From Marinobacter sp. AC-23 (GTDB taxonomy: Bacteria > Pseudomonadota > Gammaproteobacteria > Pseudomonadales > Oleiphilaceae), in contig NZ_MBPP01000034.1 in assembly GCF_001858325.1 (NCBI RefSeq), positions 62,001 to 126,000 of the forward strand: a DNA stretch of 64,000 nucleotides, read 5' to 3'. How positions within the stretch are numbered: position 1 is the stretch's first letter; every line of letters starts with the position of its first letter. The notes below the pieces were generated by a model. That model saw only the letters and a program-made list of their open reading frames with translations, was not told where the DNA came from and ran no database searches. Positions 44,065 to 49,468 of this stretch are shown in pieces. Made by a program: the position numbers and the translations under genes.

Positions 44065-44188
44065 AAACCTCAGATATCAAAGCGTTTTGTTCTTTTTTTG
44101 ATCAGCGTATTCACGGCAGGTTGATATGTGTACAATTTTTACATACCAGCATGCCGTTTGTTGTTGCCAGGATGTAGGGTCGGTTGTT

Positions 44189-45501
44189 ATGAGTGCTCAG
44201 AAATCTCGTACGCACAAGGTGAACCCACCCAGAACCATCGCTGTAACTGGCGGCAAGGGCGGTGTTGGAAAAACATCTGTAGCCTTAACCTGGCACTCAC
44301 GCTGGCCCGACAACAAAAGCGTGTGTTGCTGCTGGATGGCGATACAGATCTTGCTAACGTCAGCATCATGCTGGGCCTTTATCCTGAGCGAACACTAGCC
44401 AATGTAGTTGCTGCTGAATGCCGCCTTGAGGATATTCTTCTGGAAGTGGATTACGGCCTGCATATTTTGCCTGGTGCTTCTGGTGTCCAAGAGTGTATGA
44501 GCATGGAGCCTGAGGAGAGTTTTCGTATCCTGCGCGCTCTTTCAGCACTGGAAAGACGCTATGATTACGTTATAACGGATACCGCCGCGGGCCTTCAGCC
44601 TACAGGCTTACACATGATTGCAGCGGCGGAGCTGGCGTGTGTGGTTGTGACTCCGGATCCTGCCTCACTGACAGACGCTTTTTCCCTGATCAAGGTATTG
44701 AAGCGCCGTGGGTACCGGAGAACACCCAGTGTGCTGATCAACATGGCGCAAGGTGCCAGCCAGGCCCGCTCGGTATTTCAACGTCTTGATTCAGCTGCGC
44801 GGCGACATCTGCAGTGTTCTCTGCATTATATGGGGGGAATATGGCGTGATGAGACCCTGCGTCAGTCGGTATTAAACCAAAGGCCTGTTGCTCTCTTACC
44901 CGTGTCTGATCCGTCCTGCCGGCAGTTCACCACCCTGGCTGACATGCTTAATGTGCGCTTGGCGCAACTGCCTGTTCGCAAAGCTGGCATAGCCGCCTAC
45001 TGGCACTCAGTTTCGAAGCGCCAGCCAGCCCGCGCGCAGAAAGCAGACGCCGCAGTAAGTCCTCGTGAGCGCTGTCTTCAGGCAGTTGGCGAACTGGAAC
45101 TGGTGCTCGGGAGTTCAGATGAGAGCGCCATGCTGCGCTACGTTGCTTTTATGCGCCTGTTTGCGCTGTTGGGGCGCACGCTCGACAACGACACCGTAGA
45201 AATTATACAGACCGGGCTTAGCGCCATCGCTTGGGAAAACCTGAGCCAGGAACAGCGCAAGCACCTGGCAGCGCATCTCAGACATCTAGCTGGCGAAATC
45301 GCACCCACTGATCTATCTCCCGGTGATACCACTGAAGGTATGCAGAATTTGCCGCAGACTGTGCTCCCCGAGCCTTTTTATGACCGCATCAGTTTTGGTG
45401 ATCAGGCAAGCCTGGTTCGAGTCTTGAAAGAACAGCCTTCTGATATTTCTCTGAGCCAGATACTCCGGGCGTTGGCGGATGAGAAAGATAACGACGCTTG
45501 A
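44189..45501 (+). CDS. FlhG/MinD-like ParA-family ATPase with C-terminal extension (frameshifted)
   Basis: The start at 44189 (MSAQKSRTHKV) reads through the deviant Walker motif GGKGGVGKT and then breaks at 44280-44282. Restoring one A gives GKTSVSLNLALTLARQQKR and a 437-residue protein. It continues DGDTDLANVSIMLGL, YDYVITDTAAGL and VVVTPDPASLTDAFSLIKVL, which match FlhG/FleN closely. FlhG is about 270 residues; here a further 165 residues follow with no family I recognise. No flagellar gene is nearby, so a role in positioning or counting something else is possible. Confidence 0.8.
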
Positions 45502-45611
45502 GCGCGTGTGTTGAGGGGGAGTACAAACATGCCGGTTAACCCGTCATTTTATCGGTGGTGTTTGTAGAGTAGCGTTTTGTGCTGACATTGTTGTGCGAGT
45601 TTTGGTGATAA

Positions 45612-45653
45612 CCTTGCACTTTGTCACCGCCCTACCACAAAGATTGTGCAAGG
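45612..45653. promoter_or_regulatory. Long inverted repeat just upstream of the fatty acyl-CoA reductase
   Basis: CCTTGCAC (45612-45619) plus TTTGT (45620-45624) is mirrored by ACAAA (45637-45641), a GATT insert, and GTGCAAGG (45646-45653). The outer eight-base arms are perfect. It ends about 25 bases before the Shine-Dalgarno and 40 before the ATG, so it could be a repressor site or an mRNA hairpin. Confidence 0.5.
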
Positions 45654-45692
45654 ATCGGTTACTGCTGGCATCCAAGAAAAGGAGTTTTCACC

Positions 45693-47240
45693 ATGGCAAA
45701 GCAAACAGAGGGGGCTGGAGTGTCTTCATCAAAGGTACTTGAGCAGCTTCGAGGCAAGCACGTTCTGGTTACGGGCACCACGGGGTTTCTTGGAAAAGTT
45801 GTTCTGGAAAAACTGATTCGTGCAGTACCGGACATCGGCGGTATACACCTGCTAATACGGGGCAATAAACGACACTCAGATGCCCGTGGCCGCTTTCTCA
45901 ATGAAATTGCCACCTCGTCAGTGTTTGATCGGTTGCGCCAAGAGAACGGCGAGGCGTTTGAGACTTTTCTGGAGGAGCGACTGCATTGTGTCACCGGAGA
46001 GGTAACACAACCTGATTTTGGCTTGCAGCCTGACGCATTTCGAAAACTTGCAGGCGACATCGACGCCGTTATTAATTCCGCCGCCAGCGTTAATTTTCGT
46101 GAAGAGCTTGATAAAGCCTTATCCATCAATACCCAGTGTCTGCAAAATATTGCCAGGCTTGCTCACCAAAACCCAACTCTCGTGGTTGTTCAGGTTTCAA
46201 CCTGTTATGTAAACGGAATGAATTCTGGTCAGATTACAGAATCGGTAATCAAGCCTGCTGGTGAAGATATCCCCCGCAGCCCCTCCGGGTTTTACGAAAT
46301 TGAAGAGCTGATTCGAGTGCTTAACGACATCATTGCAGATGTGCGCTCACGCTATTCCGGTAAAATATTGCAACGCAAGCTTGTGGATCTGGGTATCCGT
46401 GAGGCAAACCGTTACGGCTGGAGTGATACCTACACTTTTACTAAATGGCTGGGTGAGCAGTTGCTAATGAAGGCTCTGGAGGGGCGAGCGCTCACCATTT
46501 TGCGCCCGTCTATTATTGAAAGCGCTTTGGAAGAGCCCGCGCCTGGCTGGATTGAAGGCGTGAAAGTGGCGGATGCGATTATTCTTGCTTACGCGAGGGA
46601 AAAAGTAACCTTATTCCCCGGCAAGCGTTCCGGTATTATTGATGTCATTCCTGTCGACCTGGTTGCGAACTCCATTATTCTCGCGGCTGCTGAGGCACTG
46701 GGTGAACCCCCACGGCCTCGGATTTACCAGTGCTGCAGCGGCAGCTCGAATCCGGTGTCACTGGGTGATTTCATTGATCACCTGATGGCAGAGGCCAAAA
46801 CCAATTATGCCGCCTACGAGAACCTGTTTTATCGCCGGCCAGTCAAACCCTTTATTGCAGTGAACCGCTCTTTGTTTGATGCCTTGGTGAGTGGTGCCCG
46901 CATTCCGCTCAGTCTGACTCGCAGCATGATGCGCCTGGTGGGTATGTTGGGGCAGGGTGGCGAGCTCAAGATATTGCAAAACCTTGATACCACGCGTTCA
47001 CTCGCAACCGTTTTTGGCTTTTACACAGCACCGGATTACATTTTCCGCAATGACGACCTGCTGGCCCTGGCTTCGCGCATGGGAGAGGTCGACAAAGCTC
47101 TGTTTCCAGTGGACGCCCGCCAGATTGACTGGGCGGTGTATCTGCGCAAGATTCATCTTGCCGGCCTCAACCGCTACGCGCTCAAAGCAAGGAAAGCGCA
47201 GCGCCCTCGCACCTCTCGGATTCGCAAGCAAGCGGCGTGA
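45693..47240 (+). CDS. Fatty acyl-CoA reductase (alcohol-forming, wax-ester pathway)
   Basis: 515 residues from the ATG at 45693, with AAGGAG nine bases upstream. The NADPH-binding GTTGFLGK and the active-site YTFTK (in YGWSDTYTFTKWLGEQ) mark the FAR family, which reduces acyl-CoA or acyl-ACP to fatty alcohol. From recall, the whole protein closely resembles the Marinobacter enzyme of about 513 residues, including ILRPSIIESALEEPAPGWIE and FGFYTAPDYIFRND. Fatty alcohol is esterified to wax by a WS/DGAT enzyme not in this window. acs follows on the same strand. Confidence 0.93.
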   Translation: MAKQTEGAGVSSSKVLEQLRGKHVLVTGTTGFLGKVVLEKLIRAVPDIGGIHLLIRGNKRHSDARGRFLNEIATSSVFDRLRQENGEAFETFLEERLHCVTGEVTQPDFGLQPDAFRKLAGDIDAVINSAASVNFREELDKALSINTQCLQNIARLAHQNPTLVVVQVSTCYVNGMNSGQITESVIKPAGEDIPRSPSGFYEIEELIRVLNDIIADVRSRYSGKILQRKLVDLGIREANRYGWSDTYTFTKWLGEQLLMKALEGRALTILRPSIIESALEEPAPGWIEGVKVADAIILAYAREKVTLFPGKRSGIIDVIPVDLVANSIILAAAEALGEPPRPRIYQCCSGSSNPVSLGDFIDHLMAEAKTNYAAYENLFYRRPVKPFIAVNRSLFDALVSGARIPLSLTRSMMRLVGMLGQGGELKILQNLDTTRSLATVFGFYTAPDYIFRNDDLLALASRMGEVDKALFPVDARQIDWAVYLRKIHLAGLNRYALKARKAQRPRTSRIRKQAA

Positions 47241-47519: not shown

Positions 47520-49468
47520 ATGACTGATAAACACCTTTATCCGGTAAGCCCAGGCGTGGCCAAACGGGCCTTGCTGAACCGAGAACAGTATGACGAAATG
47601 TACCGTCGATCAGTCGAAGATCCAGGCGCCTTCTGGGGCGAGCATGGTAAGCGCCTTGAGTGGATTAAGCCTTACTCGAAGGTTAAAAATACCACGTTCG
47701 ATTACAGTAATGTTTCCATTAAATGGTTTGAAGATGGGCAGCTAAATGCGTCTGCCAACTGCCTTGATCGTCACCTGGAAACTCGAGGCGACCAGGCGGC
47801 TATTATTTTTGAAGGCGATGACCCCTCTGATTCCCGTCATGTTTCCTATCGGGAACTGCATACGGAAACCAGTAAGTTTGCCAACGTTCTTAAAGGCTTA
47901 GGCGTTAAGAAAGGGGACGTTGTCACCATCTATATGCCAATGATCGTCGAAACCGCGGTGGCGATGTTGGCCTGTGCGCGTATTGGTGCGATCCACTCTG
48001 TTGTATTTGGCGGCTTCTCACCAGAAGCGCTGGGTGCTCGAGTTGCCAATGGCAAATCACGCTTCGTTATTACCTCTGATGAGGGCTTACGCGGTGGCCG
48101 TGCGGTTCCACTGAAAAAGAATGTGAATGCGGCGCTTAAGAACGAAAGCGGTACGAACGTCGAGAAAGTGATCGTTGTCAGCCGTACGGGGAATAAAGAC
48201 GTGCCCTGGGTTGACGGGCGCGATGAGCGCTATGAAGACCTGATGGCAACGGCCTCTGCCGATTGCCCGCCAGAGCCAATGAATGCAGAAGATCCCTTGT
48301 TTATGCTTTATACCTCAGGCTCGACAGGAGCGCCTAAAGGGGTTCTGCACACAACCGGCGGGTACATGGTTTTCGCCTCCATGACTCACGAGTATGTGTT
48401 CGATTACCACGATGGCGACATTTATTGGTGTACGGCAGACTTCGGCTGGGTAACGGGTCACAGCTACATCTTATATGGCCCTTTGTGTAACGGGGCTACC
48501 TCTGTGTTGTTTGAAGGTGTGCCGAATTATCCCGACAGCTCCCGCATGGGCCAGATTGTCGACAAGCACCAGGTGAATATCCTTTACACGGCGCCTACCG
48601 CTATCCGGGCACTGATGGCCGAGGGCGAAGCTTGCATGCAAGGAACAACCCGTAAGAGCCTAAAACTGCTGGGCTCGGTGGGTGAGCCCATAAACCCGGA
48701 AGCCTGGGAGTGGTACTACCGTGTTGTTGGAAACAGTGAATGCCCGATTGTAGATACCTGGTGGCAGACAGAAACCGGTGGTATTTTGATTTCGCCACTA
48801 CCCGGTGCGGTTGACCTGAAGCCGGGTTCTGCAACGGTGCCTTTCTTTGGTGTTAAGCCTGGGTTGGTAGATAGCGAAGGCAATCTGCAGGAAGGCAAAG
48901 CTGACGGAAACCTTGTTATTCTGGACAGCTGGCCTGGGCAGATGCGCACGATCTATGGCGATCACGAGCGCTTTATTCAGACCTATTTCAGCGCCTACAA
49001 GGGTATGTATTTTACTGGCGACGGTGCTCGCCGTGACGAAGACGGTGATTACTGGATTACAGGGCGGGTTGATGACGTGCTCAATATATCTGGGCACCGC
49101 CTGGGTACGGCTGAAGTTGAAAGCGCATTGGTGCTCATGACAAGGTGGCCGAAGCCGCCGTTGTTGGCTTCCCCCATGACATTAAAGGCCAGGGACTGTA
49201 CGTCTATGTGACTTTGATGCAAGGCGAAGAGCCTTCTGATGAGCTAAAGAAAGAGCTGGTACAGTGGGTTCGTAAAGAAATCGGCCCAATTGCCTCTCCG
49301 GATGTTATCCAGTGGGCGCCTGGCCTGCCCAAGACACGATCAGGCAAGATTATGCGCCGGATTTTGCGTAAGATTGCTGCCAATGAGCACGACCAGTTGG
49401 GAGACACCTCTACGCTAGCAGATCCTAGTGTAGTAGATGAGCTCATTGACAGTCGTGAGTTTAAATAA
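47520..49468 (+). CDS. acs: Acetate-CoA ligase (acetyl-CoA synthetase, frameshifted)
   Basis: It activates acetate via acetyl-AMP. The AMP-binding [11 protein letters not shown] and [15 protein letters not shown] are intact, as is the C-terminal [13 protein letters not shown] with the regulatory lysine. The frame shifts near 49133; restoring one G gives [17 protein letters not shown] and reading continues to 49468. The repaired length is 649 residues, as in other Acs proteins. A LuxR-type regulator of the acs-control kind follows at once. Confidence 0.95.

Follow-up and report, generated by a model that had tools for sequence, protein, structure and literature searches.

In Pho promoters generally, the -10 element lies about 10 nt past the second repeat of the Pho box, the spacing known from E. 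coli, and the established rules for extended -10 elements are those by which the motif TGTGCAAnnAT is read below. The Pho box has been described with an AT-rich spacer of 4 bp (PMC4563254), and sigma54-dependent promoters with the -24/-12 consensus TGGCACG-N4-TTGC (PMC3224663). In Marinobacter, the build-up of wax esters under nitrogen limitation has been described (PMC6308636), and the gene name farA follows the work on strain CP1 in the same source; a primer used there to delete farA in CP1 matches several of the loci compared below at their ribosome-binding region. Among the literature matches listed (titles and starts of abstracts), none concerned regulators of farA, and none combined Marinobacter fatty acyl-CoA reductase with RpoN; the matches for Marinobacter wax esters and PhoB concerned archaea and plants only, those for wax esters and phosphate limitation Rhodococcus only, and those for Marinobacter PhoB and Pho box Halomonas only.

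We analyzed the farA upstream region in a window of Marinobacter sp. AC-23 (the whole stretch of 64,000 nucleotides under study) and compared it across the genus (Table 1). The original prediction had named the gene a wax-ester reductase, and Pfam bore out its identity as a fatty acyl-CoA/aldehyde reductase. The palindrome predicted just before it is exact: the two 8-bp arms are 100% complementary at a spacing of 26 nt, TTTGT (45620-45624) pairs with ACAAA (45637-45641) as the five-base extra match, leaving GATT unpaired, and 39 nt separate the end of the right arm from the ATG at 45693. Judged as an inverted repeat, it stands out only slightly. Perfect 8-bp inverted pairs with a spacing of 3-40 number 35 in the window versus 34-60 in eight first-order Markov sequences, and a 191-nt gap of farA-upstream composition is expected to hold 0.12 such pairs (probability of at least one, 0.08), two being observed. 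The second perfect 8-bp inverted repeat in this gap, TACAAACA/TGTTTGTA at 45522-45529 / 45559-45566, encloses a CCGTCATTT segment which is also present in several relatives.

Table 1. Coordinates of features in and around the farA upstream region (positions of the window)
Feature	Position	Strand	Basis or remark
MinD/ParA-like ATPase gene, upstream of farA	44128..45501	+	Pfam AAA_31 above cut-off
farA promoter block, genus consensus TTTGTnTCGTAACTTTGCAGTnTGTCACCGCnCTGTCACnnnnnnTGTGCAAnnATTGAnC	45600..45660	+	alignment of 55 blocks; model match 45600-45658, 51 bits
Weak GG-N10-GC sigma54-like match TGGTGATAACCTTGCA	45603..45618	+	8 consensus matches; overlaps left arm
Left palindrome arm CCTTGCAC	45612-45619	+	within conserved TTTGCWG segment
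First Pho half-site TTGTCAC	45621..45627	+	block alignment; pstS/phoB-trained matrix
Second Pho half-site, degraded: CTACCAC (CTGTCAY in most relatives)	45632..45638	+	block alignment
Proposed extended -10 TGTGCAAGGAT	45645..45655	+	TG 45647-45648, hexamer AAGGAT 45650-45655; putative role
Right palindrome arm GTGCAAGG	45646-45653	+	inside proposed extended -10
Shine-Dalgarno-like AAGGAG	45679..45684	+	sequence; conserved in 15 group members
farA-type fatty acyl-CoA/aldehyde reductase gene	45693..47240	+	Pfam NAD_binding_4 + Sterile above cut-off

What is conserved before farA is a longer block in which the arms are embedded. We took farA as present at E<=1e-50, which holds for 111 of the 124 genus genomes, and compared the upstream DNA of 110 of them, leaving out G066 (gene interrupted); paralogues at 52% identity in G056 and G115 stand outside this comparison. 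A block pattern was found in 92 of the 110 upstreams, a count which, like the other block counts, is neither one of independent cases nor a probability, because genomes of one genus are related. The consensus was derived from 55 thinned sequences, and a sequence-only model, R1, was trained on the same 55 blocks; its matches were placed at farA by coordinates and compared by eye. At E<=0.01, R1 gave one match per genome in 105 of the 111 farA-bearing genomes and none in G011, G016, G047, G063, G115 and G122, G047 being a member of the window's group in which the block is only weakly matched. Among the 18 loci missed by the pattern, R1 found no block in L108-L111 and recovered it in the other 14, of which L044 and L089 gave weak matches. 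In the window's genome the match at farA (E 3.9e-13) is the single strong one, the other reaching 14 bits (E 0.13); a decayed second copy considered at 45589-45597 was unsupported (-0.5 bits). A family-wide search with stricter filters and 33 candidates scored per genome matched 107 of 163 genomes, in 2 of 16 genera. Beyond the farA genomes, these matches comprise only G067 and, weakly, G161 from another genus (E 0.003), which we took as chance; no FAR is among the ORFs listed nearby. G067, a genome without farA, carries a weak copy of the block (L117, G067:C70:107245-107285) downstream of the same MinD/ParA-like gene, which suggests that farA was lost there.

Within the block, the TGTCA and TGTG positions hold 1.4-2.0 bits of information, against 0.02-0.47 bits at positions 16-30 after TGTG, and TGTCAC of the first half-site holds 1.5-1.9 bits per position (85 distinct blocks). 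None of these 85 blocks departs from TGTG, from A at place 7 or from AT at places 10-11, the search pattern having demanded TGTG and the A but left the AT free. Strong conservation also marks the upstream half of the block (45600-45620), which reads TTTGTnnCGTAAYTTTGC across the genus and is not known to match any site.

The core of the block consists of two TGTCAY repeats 11 bp apart followed by TGTGCAAnnAT, and the Pho-box arrangement of two 7-bp direct repeats with a 4-bp spacer (11-bp period) is found genus-wide. We built a Pho matrix from 31 sites of the genus (29 from pstS, two from phoB; 18 distinct), leaving out L132, which did not fit the pattern. Over both strands, the farA block was the top position in all 92 pattern-filtered upstreams, and 88 of the 92 exceeded 13.0, the highest score of any shuffled upstream; the median was 18.1 against a training range of 17.6-21.8, and the minimum of -20.2 probably comes from a row where an indel displaces the fixed offset. 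Without the filter, 101 of 110 upstreams have a plus-strand site above 13 (positions there unchecked), compared with none of 108 control stretches from upstream gene bodies (best 11.7); one of the 110 has such a site on the minus strand, and eight have none (L002, which is the window, L008, L009, L017, L044, L060, L110 and L111). A strict Pho pattern occurs exactly in 53 of the 110 upstreams and never in shuffles, and genus-wide in 266 sites in 124 genomes versus 42 for a reversed control. The 150 sites listed comprise 28 at farA and 28 at pstS by coordinates, 26 with the pstS linker and 68 others.

Eight strict sites in three genomes lie before pstS (3), Wzi-like genes (2), hemB-ppk in a relative (1), an ABC sugar-binding protein gene (1) and farA (1), the products HemB, Ppk, Wzi and ABC sugar-binding protein being what we take them to be from translated ORFs. 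The pstS site reads TGTAACAAAGYTGTCAY in most of 30 loci, with TAGTCT- or TATTGT-like hexamers 10 nt on, and the phoB site TGTCATATASTTGTAAC, with TGTAAT 10 nt on (two genomes); at farA, AAnnAT (AAGGAT in the window) follows the second half-site after 11 nt, unlike the 10 nt of pstS and phoB. The Wzi-like gene is preceded by a strict Pho-like site, TGTCACTTGCTTGTCAC (L122 1501, G000:C35:36148-36164, and L166), which both G036 and the window's genome carry and which has a -10-like hexamer, TAAAAT, also 11 nt on. PhoB itself is encoded in the window's genome (TIGR02154, 360.4 bits; curated cut-off 296.2). The 4-bp spacer is CGCN, and hence GC-rich, at farA but AAAG at pstS, so the AT-rich spacer of the described Pho box is absent; because of this GC-rich linker and the 11-nt gap, we name the element Pho-box-like and not a classical Pho box.

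The window's own copy is a degraded one. Its Pho site scores 10.6 versus the farA median of 18.1, with only the first repeat intact; five window positions, the site itself included, reach an equal score, and sites with its 2 mismatches in 14 fixed places number 7 in 64 kb versus 6 expected. Taken alone it would be unremarkable, and the argument for it comes from orthology (51 bits with R1). With its second half-site degraded, this strain may keep only weak phosphate control, or none. A simple sigma70 promoter scan gave no promoter, and the terminator-like sites in the same scan amounted to one, which is chance level.

Downstream of the block, most of the genus carries TGGCCCGCAATATGCA or close variants. 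A strict sigma54 pattern (GG-N10-GC within TGGCNYG-N5-TGCW) was found in 79 of 110 farA upstreams (shuffles: mean 0.45, maximum 3); a looser score of at least 9 was reached in 84 of 110, yet shuffles average 11.8. The window's group (19 members) was defined by the absence of this element, and none of the 19 has the strict pattern within 400 nt upstream of farA or at least 10 sigma54 consensus matches. Outside the group the strict element is present in 79 of 91 upstreams and absent in 12, so there must be other losses or variants. In the upstream-gene tree (94 of 110 rows, 18 of 19 group members; midpoint root; L044 unplaced), a single branch (support 100/99) separates the group from all other rows, those outside it that lack the element being labelled with the others; since the group is nested among lineages mostly having the element, its loss at the base of the group is the simplest reading. 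The sigma54-like match that overlaps the left arm in the window is probably a chance, non-functional one; outside the group the place reads TTTGTnnCGTAA, mostly without GG.

In 97 of 110 loci, farA comes after the C-terminus of the MinD/ParA-like gene; in the window, no NCBIfam model matches this gene above cut-off, and its P-loop, GGKGGVGKT, lies in another frame (44126-44398 vs 44128-45501), a split that amounts to a frameshift, whether genuine or introduced by sequencing. On the other side of farA, an acyl-CoA synthetase-like gene seems to be spread over two overlapping frames (47520-49211 and 49145-49468 in the ORF list), apparently another frameshift. A wax regulon shared with other wax genes was considered and rejected: none of nine WS/DGAT upstreams (G000, G036) has a sigma54 score of at least 9, and there is one weak Pho-like match among them (2 mismatches, L179), the survey having left out the acrB-type reductase and the pieces L183, L186 and L187. 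These pieces (G000:C26:24858-25674) make up a WS/DGAT-type gene of the window's genome in three parts, one with an internal stop, which is apparently broken or misread.

The original prediction had proposed footprinting of FAR upstreams as its own check, and this went against the palindrome: both perfect arms are present in 2 of 110 upstreams, those of the window and L017 (1420-1461, G009:C43). Among the 92 pattern-aligned blocks, a set to which L017 does not belong, all eight pairs form in 1, seven in 9, six in 29 and five in 32. The left arm owes its full complementarity in the window to the C at 45619, a position occupied by G in most relatives (among 15 aligned group members, 13 have G, one has A and the window alone has C); L017, outside these 15, also has C at the matching position. 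The two loci are not sister lineages in the upstream-gene tree, and the inner five-base match is absent in L017. L017 resembles the window in lacking the sigma54 element and in that its second Pho half-site is degraded, in its case to CTGATTC.

An RNA structure at the palindrome fared no better. RNAalifold predicted zero pairs in the farA block alignment, the pairing in 55 sequences was no higher than in shuffles (the observed value was reached by 81 to 481 of 500, depending on which of five measures was used), columns 22 and 50, innermost in the 8-bp stem, paired in 7 of 54 sequences, and the single-strand fold had a z of -0.92 and lacked the arm helix. Rfam gave no match at gathering score within the window. 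The named structure does pair 72.7% of cells versus 39-59% for slid versions, an excess to be expected because its source is a member of this set and because TTTGC and GCAA are conserved. The right arm falls within the proposed -10 region and the left arm within the conserved TTTGCWG segment; on this view the palindrome is a by-product, and it is probably not a functional unit of the farA upstream.

Judging from sequence, we think it likely (probability about 0.7) that farA is served by a PhoB-type sigma70 promoter, accompanied elsewhere in the genus by a tandem sigma54 promoter which could carry nitrogen control. Under phosphate shortage, phosphorylated PhoB would bind the TGTCAY repeats, which would stand in for a -35 element, and would recruit sigma70 polymerase to the extended -10 TGTGCAAnnAT, with transcription predicted to start near 45661-45663, downstream of both palindrome arms. 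In other lineages the sigma54-like -24/-12 element may act as a second, nitrogen-linked promoter which the window's group does without, and in the window strain the degraded half-site may have left PhoB control weak or lost. The suspicion of a regulator at this place was right in one respect: the site does hold a conserved regulatory element, though the palindrome itself is not that element. Nitrogen control would fit the sigma54-like element of other species but not the window's group, whose element resembles a Pho promoter. More tentatively, wax storage might be wired to two nutrient alarms at farA, phosphate through the PhoB-type sigma70 and nitrogen through the tandem sigma54 promoter; the nitrogen arm would then have been given up by the window's group, with the phosphate arm now being lost as well in this strain.

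Three rival explanations were weighed. The block might be read not by PhoB but by another regulator of the OmpR/PhoB family with the same repeat pattern; the GC-rich linker, the 11-nt gap and the occurrence of the full 61-position block once per genome would agree with this, but the farA half-sites score like those of pstS and phoB, and we consider it unlikely. Somewhat less likely still, the block could be an activator site at which a sigma54 enhancer-binding protein, bound to the repeats, drives the downstream -24/-12 element. Besides the high frequency of the strict element over shuffles, the spacing speaks for such an arrangement: among 65 loci having both block pattern and strict element, the distance from the first repeat is 53-55 bp in 56, although it is 46, 52, 74, 87 or 89 in the other nine. 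The block, however, persists in the window's group, where the element is missing in all 19 (in G047 the block is only weak), the repeats match the boxes of pstS and phoB, and TGTGCAAnnAT would be left without explanation.

A dyad operator or RNA hairpin regulating farA, perhaps newly gained in the window strain and L017, is very improbable and was largely rejected, given the rarity of the intact arms and the missing RNAalifold structure. L017 is the exception: it and the window both combine perfect arms with a degraded second half-site, a counterpoint to the Pho reading, and the dyad could have replaced Pho control in these two. The nine further blocks with seven pairs, the conserved TTTGC and GCAA of the arms and the excess over slid versions point the same way, but the paired percentage was reached by 81 of 500 shuffles, the single-strand fold does without the arm helix, and L017 lacks the inner match.

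If the PhoB-type reading is true, phosphate limitation should also induce farA, the DNA elements to mutate at its promoter are now named, and the palindrome is accounted for as a by-product; if wax storage does answer to two alarms, the lineages form a natural series for dissecting the nutrient control of wax esters. Compared with known systems, the relatives' TGGCCCGCAATATGCA and its variants before farA resemble a sigma54 -24/-12 promoter but mostly have ATGC, not TTGC, in the -12 part, and the window's group is without them. With the Pho boxes of pstS and phoB, the farA block shares two TGTCAY-type 7-mers at an 11-bp period, a putative -10-like element 10-11 nt downstream and recognition by the same matrix; it differs from them in its GC-rich linker, in AAnnAT with an upstream TG, in an extra conserved upstream half, in preceding a lipid gene and not a phosphate gene, and, in the window, in its degraded copy.
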